Source: Bradyrhizobium icense (lineage in GTDB: Bacteria > Pseudomonadota > Alphaproteobacteria > Rhizobiales > Xanthobacteraceae). Taken from it: DNA of 64,000 bases. The DNA is taken from the NCBI RefSeq assembly GCF_001693385.1, contig NZ_CP016428.1:7616001-7680000 (forward strand), read 5' to 3'. Position numbers and translations under genes: made by a program. Below the pieces are notes generated by a model that was not told the DNA's origin, did not search any database, and saw only the letters and a program-made list of their open reading frames with translations. This document shows positions 7,656 through 13,107 of the stretch, one piece after another. The stretch's first letter is position 1. The number at the start of each line of letters is the position of its first letter.

Positions 7656-8285
7656 TCAATCGCCGCTCGGCGGCGCCAGCGGCTGCACGATTTCCTGGAA
7701 CGGCGGCAGCGCCTCGCAAGCGGCGGAATGCGCCTTCAGCGCCGGATAGCGCGCGTCGAACAGCGCCGGATGCGCCTCGCCGACGAAGCGCAGCACGCAG
7801 GCGACGGCGATATCGGCGTGGCCGACTTTCTCGCCGAACCAATAGGGCGTCTTCACCGCGGCGCGCTCCTTCTCCAGCACCTCCAGCACGCCCGCGATCT
7901 GGGCCTTGCAGCGCTCGACCCAGAGATCGAGCTGCTCCTTGCGCAACACGCGCTCGTACAGCAGGCTGACGCCCTTGTCGCCGAGCCCCATCGCCAGCGC
8001 GCAAATCCGCAAATGTCGCCAGCGCGCCTCGCCGCTCCGCGCGATCATCGCCTTCTCGGGTCCTATGCGATCGTCGAGATAATCCAGGATCATCGCGCTT
8101 TCGATCAGCGCCTCCCCGCCATCAAGCACCAGCGTCGGCACCCGGCGCAGCGGATTATAGGGCGCGATCTTGTCGGCATCGCCGAAGGTCGACCACGGCT
8201 TGTGCTCGAAGTCGATGCCATAGAGCCGCATCGCGATGGCGACGCGGCGGACGAACGGGGAGTCGTATTGGCCGATCAGGATCAT
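7656..8285 (-). CDS. Glutathione S-transferase family protein
   Basis: A 209-residue glutathione transferase. The N-terminal thioredoxin-like domain begins MILIGQYDSPFVRRVAIAMRLYGI, with the glutathione-site segments NPLRRVPTLVLDGG and ALIESAMILDYLDD; the C-terminal helical domain carries GHADIAVACVLRF near 157. The start at 8285 gives the conserved N-terminus; an upstream in-frame extension is rejected because it runs into the palindromic repeat at 8337-8434. Members of this type detoxify electrophiles with glutathione. The substrate is unknown. It is convergent with the maiA-like gene across a family B repeat. Confidence 0.85.
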   Translation of the reverse strand: MILIGQYDSPFVRRVAIAMRLYGIDFEHKPWSTFGDADKIAPYNPLRRVPTLVLDGGEALIESAMILDYLDDRIGPEKAMIARSGEARWRHLRICALAMGLGDKGVSLLYERVLRKEQLDLWVERCKAQIAGVLEVLEKERAAVKTPYWFGEKVGHADIAVACVLRFVGEAHPALFDARYPALKAHSAACEALPPFQEIVQPLAPPSGD

Positions 8286-8459: not shown

Positions 8460-9053
8460 TCACTCAATCACCGGCACATGCCGCGCAACCTCGCGCGGTG
8501 CGGTGCCGTCGAGCCGGGGATCGTCGGTGATCTCGATCTGGCGCCGGAAGGCGCGAAAGCCCGAGCGCTGGTAGAAGGCGAGTGCGGCGGGGTGGTCGAA
8601 GGTGCAGGTGTGCAGCCAGACGCGGGCAACCGGCCGCGACCAGGCGATCTCCAGCGCGCGGTTCATCAGCCAGCGGCCGGCGCCGGTTCCGACCAGTTTT
8701 GCGGTGACGCCGAACATGCCGATTTCGCACTGGCCGGGCTCGCGAAAATCCAGCTCGAGCAGGCCCTCGTCGCGGCCGTTATCGACCAGCGCGTAGACTT
8801 CGAGCTGCGGCGAGTGAAGCCGTGCCGCGAGTTCGGCGTCCGCCATCTGCATCCGCGAGAACCACAGCCATTCCTCGCCGACGCGACGATAGAGATCGCG
8901 AAACCAATCGAGCGGCGGCGTCTCGACTCGGCGCAGTGACCACGCTCGGGGTTGATCGAAGCGCAGCGCGGGACGCGTGGTCATTTCCAGATGCGTGACG
9001 ATGGCGGCAATTTTGCCGGCGGGAACGTCCGAACAGCCGTCGGGCAGCATCAT
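8460..9053 (-). CDS. GNAT-family N-acetyltransferase
   Basis: A 197-residue GNAT protein that would transfer an acetyl group from acetyl-CoA to an amine. The acetyl-CoA-binding motif A is GMFGVTAKLVGTGAGRWLMNRAL near residues 115-135, a variant of the usual Q/RxxGxG/A loop. Motif B follows as VWLHTCTFDHPAALAFYQRSGF near 145-166. The substrate is unknown. The start at 9053 follows a GGGGGAG ribosome binding site; a later ATG at 8984 would still leave the whole domain. It lies just downstream of, and on the same strand as, the low-GC zeta-DnaB gene but looks like normal host-composition sequence. Confidence 0.85.
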   Translation of the reverse strand: MMLPDGCSDVPAGKIAAIVTHLEMTTRPALRFDQPRAWSLRRVETPPLDWFRDLYRRVGEEWLWFSRMQMADAELAARLHSPQLEVYALVDNGRDEGLLELDFREPGQCEIGMFGVTAKLVGTGAGRWLMNRALEIAWSRPVARVWLHTCTFDHPAALAFYQRSGFRAFRRQIEITDDPRLDGTAPREVARHVPVIE

Positions 9054-9089
9054 CCAGCGCTACTCCCCCTCTTAGCACTCGCGCTCGTA

Positions 9090-11279
9090 CTACGTAGCGA
9101 GATCACTAAATGAACCAATGTTCGCCTCAAACATTAGGTTTATCGTACCGGTGGCTCCGTTTCGCTGCTTAGCAACTATGAGCTCTGCTAGGCCAAAACT
9201 CAATTCCATCTCCGAAACCCATTTCGAATACTCGTAACTGTCCGGCGGCGGCTCTTCCTGGGCAAGATAGTAATCATCTCGGTGTAGAAACATAATCACA
9301 TCGGCGTCCTGTTCGATCGCGCCCCTGTCGTTGAATTCCTCTAGACGAGGTCGCTTATCTCTCCGTCTTTCAACCTTCGACGGCAGTTGTGCTAGAACCA
9401 GGATCGGAATAGCCAAATCTTTAGCAAGTTTCTTAAGTTCGCGGGTTACTTGTAGAGAACGGCTCCTTGATTCTCCAAAATTCGTGCGGGCGGCTACCCG
9501 CAACAGTTCGAGATTATCGATAATCAACAAATCAAGTCCCTTCTGAGATTTGAGTCGATGAGCTCGAGCCGCAAGTTGCTCAATTGAAAGAGCCGTAGTT
9601 TCATCAATGAAAAAGGGAAGGGCTTGAAATTCGATGGCTTGATCGCGGATGATTTCGAATTCCTTCTCGGAAATTGCGCCGCCACGAATAACACCGATCG
9701 GAATTCTGCCTTGCTGTGAGATAACTCGCGTTGCGATTTGCTCCGAGGACATCTCTAGCGAAAAAAGTCCCACGACACCGCCATCGACGGTCGTTTTACT
9801 TCCATCCTCGCGGACCTCCGTTCTCCATGACCTTGCAACGTTGTAGGCGATATTGGTAGCCAAGGCTGATTTGCCGATGCCGGGGCGACTAGCTAAGACT
9901 ATTAGCTCTGAGGGCTGCAACCCGACGATCTTGCGGTCAACGTCAACAAACCCCGTTTTGAGGCCTGGCCCCGTGCGTACAAAAGCGCGGGCTGCCGAAT
10001 CGAGTGCACCTACCAACGCTCTGGAAAACTGATGAAGACCTTGTGTCAGCGGCGGCTGGAACGGCAACGCTGGCTCGCGAGCATCATTGCTTCTGGCCTC
10101 AGTGAGCCGATCGAGCTCTAACCTCGCCTGCTCGATCTGCGTCATGGGTGACGAATCGACCCGCTCATCGCAAGCGGCACTTACTATATTTTCGCCGAGA
10201 CGGATTAGTTCACGACGTAGTGAAAGCTCGAAGACTATCCGTGCATTCTCACGCGCCTCGGCTAGCGTTACCGCCTCTGTCTCAAGAACATTGAGATACT
10301 GCCCAACGGTCAAGCCGCCTAGGTCGGCATCCACTGGAACAGACTTTCCGACTGCTTCCAACGTTATTCTCTCGCCGGCTTGCGCCAAACTAACCGCTGC
10401 TTGAAGTATCACTTGATGGATTGGTTCGAAGAAGTGTCGCGGCTCAAGAGACCCTAAGAGATCGGGTAGTGCTTCACTATTGGCGATGACAGCGCCCAAA
10501 ACACGCTGCTCGGCCTCGATGCTATGAGGTATGGGACTATGATCGGCCTGCACCAGCGTAGCGATCGCCCCAGGCGTGCTTCTGTCAGCCTTTATCTCAA
10601 GCGGCAGAGTAACAACTGATCCAACGTCGGGTTTGCTACGAAAGTTTGCATAGCTATCGAAAGGATTCGTGCCGATCGGATCTAGCACAAACCGCTTCAG
10701 CCAAGCCGGCGGGACACCGATCTGCTCGCTCTGAGGCAGACGTCCACTTCTTGTTGCACTTCGATGATATACTAATCGCGGGACAGTATTAATCGTTCCA
10801 ATTGTGCTGTTATCAAAGATATAGGAGCGATCGGATGACCTTATCGCCTGCTGCAGCAAATTCATTGTGCGGAGCCAGCGCTCGCGAACTTTATCTTCAG
10901 GAACCGCGTGGCCTCCTTGAGCAACGCGGAGAGCCACACGCTCGACATTGGTCTGGGGATCGTCGGTGCCTACAAAATACAACAGAACTGTATAGTCCGC
11001 CTCCTTCGCTCTCACCAATATGTCAACCTTGGACGGATGAGACATTACTGTCTCAAAGCTGAAGCTTCGCTTCGCCCGTATGCAAGCGTCTCTTCGACTG
11101 TCAGCGATTGCTTGAGCTTCTCTGGTGCGCTCAGCGAGCGTGCCGCTCAATTCAGCGGCTATTTCGTCGGGGTTGATATACTCGCCTAGATCAACGCCGT
11201 TTGCTAACAGATGTCGAGTAAGAGTCGTTTTTCCGGCTCCGTTAGGACCGGCAACCATAAGCAGAAACGGTTCGCTCAA
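9090..11279 (-). CDS. Zeta-toxin-like (COG4185) kinase fused to a DnaB-type helicase
   Basis: One uninterrupted 729-codon frame joins two normally separate proteins. Residues 1-205 form a zeta-toxin/COG4185 P-loop kinase: Walker A GPNGAGKT at 11-18, NPDEIA with Asp38, FETVMSHPSK near 75, and RVAQGGHAVPEDKVRERW near 118-135. Residues 250-352 are a DnaB N-terminal domain (HSIEAEQRVLGAVI onward). Residues 438-729 are the RecA-like DnaB helicase domain: Walker A RPGIGKS at 465-471, FSLEMS at 506-511, Walker B LLIIDNLEL with Asp588 (family norm is DYLQL), GAIEQDADVIMF and AKQRNGATGT. Zeta enzymes phosphorylate sugar-nucleotide targets; DnaB unwinds the replication fork. Start is TTG with a GGAG site seven bases upstream. 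Base composition is clearly lower in GC than both neighbours. The joint function is unknown. Confidence 0.88.
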   Translation of the reverse strand: MSEPFLLMVAGPNGAGKTTLTRHLLANGVDLGEYINPDEIAAELSGTLAERTREAQAIADSRRDACIRAKRSFSFETVMSHPSKVDILVRAKEADYTVLLYFVGTDDPQTNVERVALRVAQGGHAVPEDKVRERWLRTMNLLQQAIRSSDRSYIFDNSTIGTINTVPRLVYHRSATRSGRLPQSEQIGVPPAWLKRFVLDPIGTNPFDSYANFRSKPDVGSVVTLPLEIKADRSTPGAIATLVQADHSPIPHSIEAEQRVLGAVIANSEALPDLLGSLEPRHFFEPIHQVILQAAVSLAQAGERITLEAVGKSVPVDADLGGLTVGQYLNVLETEAVTLAEARENARIVFELSLRRELIRLGENIVSAACDERVDSSPMTQIEQARLELDRLTEARSNDAREPALPFQPPLTQGLHQFSRALVGALDSAARAFVRTGPGLKTGFVDVDRKIVGLQPSELIVLASRPGIGKSALATNIAYNVARSWRTEVREDGSKTTVDGGVVGLFSLEMSSEQIATRVISQQGRIPIGVIRGGAISEKEFEIIRDQAIEFQALPFFIDETTALSIEQLAARAHRLKSQKGLDLLIIDNLELLRVAARTNFGESRSRSLQVTRELKKLAKDLAIPILVLAQLPSKVERRRDKRPRLEEFNDRGAIEQDADVIMFLHRDDYYLAQEEPPPDSYEYSKWVSEMELSFGLAELIVAKQRNGATGTINLMFEANIGSFSDLAT

Positions 11280-11298: not shown

Positions 11299-11532
11299 TT
11301 AAGCTACGGAACGCCCCGCTTTTTGTTTGGCAGAAGCATTATCGTTTGGAAGGTCAGCGACAGGGCCTAAATCTTCGATACGACCGTCCGGATAGTATCG
11401 TATTCTGCGGCCATCCCGTGAGCCAGTGACAGAATGACCTGCTGCAAACGCCTTCCGGGTCGCAGTAGACCATGCCCCGCTTGCGAGAGCGGCCAAATCG
11501 GTTGCCGTTAGATCTGTTACCTTCTTGGTCAT
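11299..11532 (-). CDS. Small protein upstream of the zeta-DnaB fusion; candidate antitoxin
   Basis: A 77-residue protein beginning MTKKVTDLTATDLAALAS, followed by a helical stretch and a GSRDGRRIRYYPDGRIEDLG segment that looks like a small beta hairpin. It ends 19 bases before the TTG start of the zeta-DnaB gene on the same strand, the usual spacing of toxin-antitoxin pairs. I recall small proteins of this kind beside COG4185 kinases, but no antitoxin function has been shown from sequence. No strong ribosome binding site is visible; an in-frame start at 11547 would add five residues. It shares the low-GC composition of the fusion gene. The antitoxin role is inference. Confidence 0.7.
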   Translation of the reverse strand: MTKKVTDLTATDLAALASGAWSTATRKAFAAGHSVTGSRDGRRIRYYPDGRIEDLGPVADLPNDNASAKQKAGRSVA

Positions 11533-11601
11533 GTGCGCAGTATACATTGCTGCATCGGCAAAATATAGGAGGTAATCGTTAAGTTTGGGTCTTCGAGGTC
11601 C

Positions 11602-13107
11602 TTACCCCTCCCCCTCATCACTCGCCAGCACGCCCTTAACCGCCCTCGCCCAGCCCGCCAGCTTCCGTTCTCGTGTCGCCTTGCTCATCGCCGGCTTGAA
11701 GCGGTGTTCGAGCCGCCAGTTGTCGGCGAACCTTGCCGGCTCGGGATAGACGCCGGCGTTCAGCCCGGCGAGATAGGCGGCGCCTAATGCCGTGGTTTCC
11801 TGGATCATCGGGCGGTCGACCGGCGCGTCGAGCAGATCGGCGAGGCGCTGCATGGTCCAATCGGACGCGGTCATGCCGCCGTCGACGCGGAGCACGATGT
11901 TGGCGGCGGTTGCGTCCGGCCAGTCGGCGCGCATGGCGGCCCAGAGGTCGAAGGTCTGGTAGCAGACGCTTTCCAGCGCGGCATGGGCGAGTTCGGCGGG
12001 GCCAGTGTTGCGGGTGAGGCCGAACAACGCGCCGCGGACGCGCGGATTCCAGTAGGGCGCGCCTAAGCCCACGAAGGCCGGCACCAGATAGACGCTCTGC
12101 ATGGAATCGGATTTGTCGGCGAGCGGGCCCGTCTCGGATGCCTGCTTGATGATGCCGAGGCCGTCGCGCAGCCATTGCACAGCGCTTCCTGCGACGAAGA
12201 TCGAGCCTTCTAGCGCATAGGTGCGTTTGCCGTCGAGCTGATAGGCGATGGTGGTGAGCAGCTTGTTCTTCGAGGCGACCGGCATGGTGCCGGTGTTAAG
12301 CAGCGCGAAGCAGCCGGTGCCATAGGTCGACTTGATCATGCCAGGCGTGAAGCAGGCCTGGCCGATGGTTGCGGCCTGTTGGTCGCCGGCGATGCCGGAT
12401 ACTGCGATCGGGCCGCCGAACAAGTCGGGCACGGATTCACCGAACTTGGCGGAGGAATCTTTCACCTCCGGCAGCATTGAGCGCGGCACGCGCAACAGCT
12501 TCAGGAGTTCGTCGTCCCACTCGCCGGTGTGGATGTTGAACAGCAGCGTGCGCGAGGCGTTGGTGGCGTCGGTGGCGTGCACCTTGCCGCCGGTCAGCCG
12601 CCACAGCAGATAGCAATCGACGGTGCCGAACATCAGTTCGCCGCGGCCGGCGCGCTCGCGCGCGCCCGGCACGTGGTCGAGGATCCAGGCGACTTTGGTG
12701 CCGGAGAAATAGGGGTCGATGATCAGGCCCGTCCTGGCCGAGATCGTGGGCTCATGGCCTTCACTTTTTAATTTGGCGCAGATATCGGCGGTGCGGCGGT
12801 CCTGCCAGACGATGGCGCGGTGTACCGCCTGCCCCGTGGCGCGGTCCCAGACCACCGTGGTCTCGCGCTGGTTGGTAATGCCGATGGCGGCGATGTCTTT
12901 CGCTTTCAGGCCGGCCTTTTCCAGCGCCTGGCGGCAGACCTGTAACGTCGAGGTCCAGATGTCCTCCGGCTCATGCTCGACCCAGCCGGATGCCGGGAAA
13001 TGCTGCGGGAATTCCTGCTGTGCCGTGGCGGCGATGGAAATGTCGCTGCGGAACACCATGGCGCGTGAAGACGTGGTGCCCTGATCGATGGCCAGCACAA
13101 AGGACAT
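11602..13107 (-). CDS. glpK: Glycerol kinase
   Basis: A 501-residue FGGY-family kinase phosphorylating glycerol with ATP to glycerol 3-phosphate. The N-terminus [17 protein letters not shown] is the phosphate-1 loop; [49 protein letters not shown] and [18 protein letters not shown] are classic glycerol kinase signatures. Length matches the family. The start at 13107 gives the canonical N-terminus; an upstream extension of 29 residues is not conserved-looking. No glpD, glpF or glp regulator is adjacent, so it is either a single-gene unit or a displaced member of the regulon. It ends 70 bases from the low-GC islet. Confidence 0.96.

Follow-up and report, generated by a model that had tools for sequence, protein, structure and literature searches.

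We analysed a stretch of 64,000 nucleotides from Bradyrhizobium icense (contig NZ_CP016428.1, positions 7,616,001 to 7,680,000 of the forward strand), referred to as the window, and focused on a gene that joins a zeta-type toxin kinase to a DnaB-derived part, together with the small gene upstream of it (Table 1). The fusion gene is one open frame of 729 codons with a TTG start, and the plus strand across it is rich in stops. In the protein, Pfam recognizes Zeta_toxin (PF06414) at residues 3–140 (34 bits against a cut-off of 22.3), the DnaB N domain at residues 251–350 (58.8 bits against 23) and the DnaB C domain at residues 439–725 (256.4 bits against 27). The open frame and these scores confirm the first-pass annotation, which had described zeta and both DnaB domains in a single frame; the motifs GPNGAGKT (residues 11–18) and RPGIGKS (465–471) are present in the translation where it had placed them. 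No stop lies between residues 205 and 250, a region in which it had considered a break of the frame. The homologs with both domains that it had proposed to look for are found as many metagenome proteins and in one complete Bradyrhizobium genome (G198), which carries the same open frame with 62% identity. The second complete genome and the many homologs rule out a sequencing error or a chance deletion fusion.

Table 1. Features of the zeta–DnaB unit in the window
Feature	Position	Strand	Basis
Zeta kinase–DnaB fusion gene, 729 residues, TTG start	9090..11279	-	open reading frame, Pfam, homologs
Zeta kinase domain, residues 1–203	10671..11279	-	Pfam; invariant residues; fold matches
Zeta Walker A GPNGAGKT, residues 11–18	11226–11249	-	translation
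Low-confidence linker, residues 204–248	10536..10670	-	model pLDDT below 50 at 205–248
DnaB N-terminal domain, residues 251–350	10230..10529	-	Pfam; absent in 10 relatives
Helix 412–435, probably the DnaB linker helix	9975..10046	-	conservation; low-confidence model; name inferred
DnaB C-terminal ATPase domain, residues 439–725	9105..9965	-	Pfam; residues; fold match
DnaB Walker A RPGIGKS, residues 465–471	9867–9887	-	translation
Loop after Walker B, residues 595–609, worst kept stretch relative to DnaB	9453..9497	-	column conservation
NDRG in place of the RESG single-stranded DNA contact loop, residues 650–653	9321..9332	-	alignment
Small gene, 82 residues, probable antitoxin, 19 bases upstream of the fusion gene	11299..11547	-	open reading frame; profile linkage
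GAGGGGGAG, repeated glpK 3'-end sequence, GNAT edge of the insert	9063..9071	-	
GAGGGGGAG inside the glpK 3' end, other edge of the insert	11608..11616	-	

The predicted structure of the fusion protein has a mean predicted local distance difference test score (pLDDT) of 81.4 and a predicted template modelling score of 0.47. The zeta, DnaB-N and DnaB-C parts are well predicted, with low stretches at residues 205–248, 400–412 and 431–436, and the DnaB half gives a strong fold match.

To define the family, the whole protein was searched against 7992 candidates, of which 2913 matched; the best 120 of these were examined. A second protein search was scored on residues 1–210 over candidates about 400–1275 residues long and gave 53 proteins. 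By a tally of rows, DnaB domains occur in 41 of the 53, counting the window protein: 25 have both, 10 have no N domain, and 6 (P0017, P0020, P0021, P0032, P0033 and P0125) are partial or internally deleted and were left out of trees and counts. The other full fusions share 41–78% identity with the window protein (49% for P0121). P0041, a full fusion, is called without its Walker A and was left out of the zeta tree and pair counts. P0028, a fusion without the N domain, is also missing its C-terminal end; it was left out of the C-domain tree and of the 34 fusions scored there, and, together with P0023, of the pair comparison. P0017, P0020 (on a 108-kb contig) and P0032 are called from an internal Met (MSHPSK) and are thus without the zeta Walker A, reflecting either a start-call error or a broken zeta. 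We also notice that P0037 (Bradyrhizobium sp. CCBAU 11361) and P0038 have DnaB domains with fusion-type residues and no zeta match; both probably derive from fusions whose zeta part was lost or split off.

Zeta matches are found in 7 of 265 genomes of the genus (E 1e-8), 30 of 391 of the family (E 1e-8) and 13 of 397 of the order (E 1e-30). The family and order sets are samples and overlap with the genus; in these 391 and 397 genomes, no additional DnaB fusion turned up. The three longest other zeta open frames (L099, L111 and L102) were read, and none is a DnaB fusion. The scan of genome contigs says little on the spread of the fusion, because its loci, at least 80, are a part of the total and match within the zeta part (residue 252 at most). 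Carriage of the fusion by phages or plasmids was considered and rejected: searched by itself, the zeta part matches 329 plasmid records (all below 60% identity; best 25 of 329 examined) and 4 phage records, and 4 viral contigs match over residues 1–156 at most. The annotation had known of no described system joining zeta and DnaB, and our partial literature search likewise returned no description of this architecture.

The zeta half has an intact active site. The Walker A motif and the catalytic Asp, Glu and Arg of Zeta_toxin are retained, and Gly11, Lys17, Thr18, Asp38, Glu76, Thr77, Arg114, Arg118, Gly123, His124 and Asn157 are unchanged in every fusion that has a letter at the site (34–35 of 35; P0017, P0020 and P0032, which miss the Walker A part, are not in these counts). 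Passages of a study on these toxins (PMC3062530) state that PezT and zeta phosphorylate UDP-N-acetylglucosamine and that Asp66 is required; by its position, Asp38 of the window protein would be the equivalent of PezT Asp66. Because a sequence search of the zeta part against the PDB gave only weak P-loop rows, a fold search was needed, which matched zeta, PezT, AvrRxo1 and polynucleotide kinase. The epsilon/zeta and PezAT toxins (1gvn, 2p5t, 3q8x) are 11–16% identical to the window zeta and have no DnaB domains, by which the window toxin is extended. AvrRxo1 with its small partner (4z8q, 4z8u) has a similar fold at 15–17% identity, but it is a secreted effector without a helicase part. Bacterial polynucleotide kinase (4gp7) shows 15–17% identity as well, and we know of no antitoxin-like partner for it. 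The stand-alone zeta toxin family proteins of the order are much closer, at 43–58% identity in the best loci; unlike the fusion, they stop within about 50 residues after the zeta domain and carry no helicase. Pairwise comparison of 32 fusions gives higher identity in zeta than in the C domain for 485 of 496 pairs (median 71% versus 62%). Most likely, the kinase half is the effector and the DnaB half its controller.

For the DnaB half, we compared the residues of the ATP site and of the DNA contacts, in Geobacillus numbering, between the 25 fusions with the N domain and the 10 without it. The ATP site is mostly kept. The Walker A Lys is present in 21/25 and 10/10, the catalytic Glu in 21/25 and 9/10, the Walker B Asp in 25/25 and 10/10, and the arginine finger in 25/25 and in 9/9 having a letter there; the window protein keeps its ATP site and arginine finger. 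The contacts to DNA are changed. Arg381 is kept in 5/25 and 1/9 fusions and Glu382 in 4/25 and 0/9, versus 79/79 DnaB-only relatives for both, a set taken from the top of the similarity list and thus biased to close relatives. Gly384 is kept in 21/25 and in 7/7 having a letter. The window protein has N, D and G at these sites, so two of three are replaced. The RESG loop had been chosen before the comparison, and was then found in passages of PMC6391071, in which R381, E382 and G384 contact the phosphates of single-stranded DNA. The 'complete DnaB-type helicase' of the first-pass annotation therefore holds for the domains, which are complete, whereas the DNA-contacting residues are replaced.

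Conservation was also compared along the C domain. In a set of 80 DnaB-only proteins, 177 columns reach 95% identity or more; 97 of them are kept in at least 80% of the 34 fusions and 47 in 30% or fewer. Of the 15-residue segments, the loop after Walker B has the lowest value (7% kept over 7 columns); it was picked for the following test after viewing column conservation: the two loop regions together are kept at 40% (32 columns) versus 71% elsewhere (145 columns; Mann-Whitney p 3.5e-5). At 14 changed positions, one new residue occupies at least 75% of the fusions, for example the Tyr-to-Asn change after Walker B in 31/34. Synonymous sites are saturated between the window and G198 (differences of 0.75–0.81 by domain), so that the ratio of nonsynonymous to synonymous rates is not computable. 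Nonsynonymous differences amount to 0.15 for zeta, 0.36 for the N domain and 0.21 for the C domain, and the DnaB half is under purifying selection. Overall, the DnaB half is constrained, though apparently not in the role of a DNA-binding helicase. These comparisons suggest a repurposed ring that would no longer unwind DNA.

The N domain itself comes and goes. Its presence requires 3 changes when mapped on the zeta tree and 4 when mapped on the C-domain tree, and for the label 'without N domain' the well-supported branches force at least 3 changes on both. With Arg381, Glu382 and the loop after Walker B lost in most fusions, such repeated changes weaken the fork-linked, working helicase that the annotation had entertained. 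An accessory replicative helicase carrying a regulatory kinase would account for both DnaB domains and the strong fold match. However, the N domain is missing in 10 relatives, the single-stranded DNA contacts are lost, and the DnaB half falls below the cut-off of every replicative DnaB model of NCBIfam (best 25 of 32 families examined; TIGR00665, 350.6 versus 385.25; PRK09165, the best model, 485.3 versus 540). We therefore consider such a role highly improbable.

The nearest kin of the DnaB half is the chromosomal DnaB of Rhizobiales. Among the best 120 of the 2913 matches, its closest DnaB-only relatives come from Rhizobiales and are about 50% identical to it. A normal DnaB is encoded elsewhere in the window genome (at 4802148 of G000); it is about 50% identical over both domains and has inserts in common with the DnaB half. 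This replicative DnaB differs from the fusion at the DNA-contact residues and in the loop after Walker B, and lacks an N-terminal zeta. A phage origin is not favoured, the phage DnaB model scoring 278 bits versus 485 for the best chromosomal one and the nearest DnaB being from Rhizobiales. In passages of PMC4523182, mycobacteriophage DnaB-like proteins consist of the RecA core alone, with no N domain, as in 10 fusions; they are phage genes, and those passages name no zeta domain.

When the C-domain tree is rooted on DnaB rows, the fusions separate from them with the exception of P0040, which sits on a very long branch among the DnaB-only rows. As this tree holds only close DnaB rows, it shows the fusions set apart and not the source of their DnaB. 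On the zeta tree, one change is enough to account for the DnaB fusions, but the base is weakly supported. Because of the placement of P0040 and this weak base, a single fusion event is likely, not proven, and the DnaB half was probably gained once by the zeta unit.

Such a host-type DnaB, about 50% identical to the host copy, with the ATP site and the probable linker helix kept and the DNA contacts lost, might act as a second toxic part. In that case, the fusion would join host DnaB hexamers and block their binding to DNA. We find this improbable, since mixed rings may not form at 50% identity and since the N domain, the part that builds the collar of DnaB, is absent from 10 fusions. Alternatively, the ring may be a plain scaffold that only multiplies, localizes or stores zeta domains, without any signal related to helicases. 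The mostly kept ATPase motifs and the dispensable DNA contacts and N domain fit this view, which on the other hand leaves unexplained why a host-like DnaB was retained over a simple oligomerizer; we regard it as rather unlikely.

The small gene upstream is linked to this zeta clade. A profile was built from nine small proteins (those of the window and G198 and seven others) and searched against 15,172 open reading frames of 122 loci, all of which surround zeta genes or genes of the window. Up to E = 1, 41 frames matched, 12 of them training sequences or copies of these. All 41 are same-strand frames ending between 60 bases inside and 90 bases before the zeta start, from which we conclude that the small gene is a conserved partner of this clade, fused or not. 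Related small genes lie upstream of several stand-alone zeta genes (for example L092, L096–L098, L100 and L101). More broadly, 98 of 114 other zeta loci have a same-strand frame of 50–150 residues ending -20 to +45 bases from the zeta start, a count made with no shuffled control. The small protein has no Pfam or NCBIfam match, a possible difference from epsilon and PezA. Its place beside the toxin is that of the small partner in epsilon/zeta systems. By its arrangement, the pair looks like a toxin-antitoxin operon, and analogy with epsilon/zeta makes the small gene the probable antitoxin.

The fusion and the small gene form a 2.5-kb insert of low guanine-plus-cytosine (GC) content: 52–53%, whereas the whole window has 62.7%, glpK 65.2% and the GNAT gene 67.0%. 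The insert lies precisely between glpK and GNAT, and GAGGGGGAG from the 3' end of glpK is repeated at its far edge. Among 15 relative loci, four (L143, L144, L151 and L152) show the empty site, with the glpK stop 6–7 bases before the GNAT start; the spacer is longer in L146–L149 and still longer in L150, and in the other six glpK lies outside the stretch examined. The region in G198 shares the gene order SDR, glpK, GNAT, GST and metH with the window, and its unit (52.2% GC) is located just after the same GNAT gene. The two units thus flank one GNAT gene on opposite sides (GNAT at 8460–9053 in the window and at 8258–9001 of L123 in G198), which suggests a favoured site and hints at an insertion hot spot in the genus. 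No integrase was noticed among the open reading frames listed next to the unit in the window and G198. Against the PADLOC models, the fusion protein has no full-length match; six families match up to E 0.1, with best stretches of 19–31 residues at the P-loops (best, mad8 at residues 3–31). The low GC, the empty site in relatives and the conserved small partner bear out the acquired toxin-antitoxin-like module that the annotation had proposed.

DnaB is not the only partner of these zeta domains. The remaining 12 of the 53 long zeta proteins join zeta to a bacterial sugar transferase (3), squalene-hopene cyclase (2), RelA/SpoT (1), a family 2 glycosyltransferase (1) or PF18790 (5). The zeta of the sugar transferase, cyclase and RelA/SpoT fusions is 56–58% identical to the window zeta; that of the six family 2 glycosyltransferase and PF18790 proteins is more distant (38–46%). 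When the zeta part of P0127 served as the query of a third search, 39 proteins matched, among them a further type, a fusion to ribonucleotide reductase (P0135). The in-frame fusions to other enzymes are P0122–P0124, P0126, P0127, P0128, P0129 and P0135; in P0126 and P0128 the fused enzyme is matched part-way only and looks frame-shifted beyond. Fusions of zeta to GT2/GtrA glycosyltransferases occur at L099 (1489–3219, in G276) and L124 (8677–10407), both preceded by a small gene of the window small gene's family. In G276, the one genome checked for copy number, the next best match to the fused glycosyltransferase reaches 32%, so that a close second copy is lacking.

These fusions make selfish anchoring the strongest rival, because related zeta domains are also joined to enzymes outside replication, including the single-copy-like glycosyltransferase of G276. 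Zeta units would fuse in frame to the front of host genes and become hard to lose; the DnaB half would be a passenger that once aided persistence, without a sensing role. Fusions to the sugar transferase, cyclase, RelA/SpoT, ribonucleotide reductase and glycosyltransferases are expected under this explanation, as are the degraded motifs in the deepest DnaB-fusion lineages. Purifying selection on the DnaB half and its new conserved residues speak against it. Besides, the window genome retains its own DnaB, so the fused copy holds no essential gene hostage. Selfish anchoring is thus unlikely in our view.

As the best explanation, we tentatively propose that the locus is an acquired toxin-antitoxin unit in which a zeta toxin is mounted on a DnaB-derived, non-unwinding ring that acts as bait or sensor. 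The ancestor would be an ordinary zeta toxin-antitoxin pair that gained a Rhizobiales chromosomal DnaB copy at its C-terminal end, probably once. The DnaB part would have kept its fold, the ATP site in most members and a probable oligomerizing helix, while losing the single-stranded DNA contacts and gaining conserved residues. We speculate that the ring presents several zeta domains and may be a bait or sensor for proteins handling helicases, such as phage helicase loaders or inhibitors, or for a host replisome in trouble. Meanwhile, the putative antitoxin from the small gene would hold the zeta toxin. Once the ring is disturbed or the antitoxin is lost, the kinase would be freed and may phosphorylate a nucleotide sugar or a similar metabolite, so that growth would stop. 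Abortive infection would be the most likely use.

Several observations weigh against this bait-or-sensor proposal. A helicase-specific trigger leaves unexplained the close zeta relatives joined to enzymes that have no part in replication. With the Walker A lysine of the DnaB half missing from 4/25 full fusions, ATP use cannot be needed in all of them. The helix at 412–435, presumed to oligomerize and conserved with and without the N-terminal domain, is modelled at a pLDDT of about 53–55. Ten fusions are without the N domain, which is part of the surface that a helicase-handling protein could recognize. The closest stand-alone zeta, L091 (58%), is among the 16/114 loci without a small upstream frame. 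The DnaB fusion occurs in only 2/265 genomes of the genus, and searches of plasmids, phages and viral contigs found no phage or plasmid copy of it. Lastly, a comparison of 8 neighbour proteins of the window and 6 of G198 with the PADLOC defence models gave no match at E 1e-5.

A wider reading, which we regard as doubtful, is that soil Rhizobiales hold a class of toxin chimeras in which zeta modules capture whole housekeeping enzymes, DnaB above all, and also RelA/SpoT, ribonucleotide reductase, squalene-hopene cyclase and lipid-linked sugar transferases; the DnaB copy would be a non-unwinding bait for parasites that attack DnaB. If true, the DnaB-class chimeras would be a bacterial counterpart of the integrated decoys in plant immune receptors. 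What triggers toxin-antitoxin systems is, for most of them, debated or not known. In this locus, a toxin-type kinase is joined to a recognizable host-derived protein that has lost its DNA contacts and mostly kept its ATPase core, which makes the question of the trigger directly testable through the partners of the DnaB half. That related zeta domains are also joined to other core enzymes suggests a general way for toxin modules to acquire sensors or anchors.
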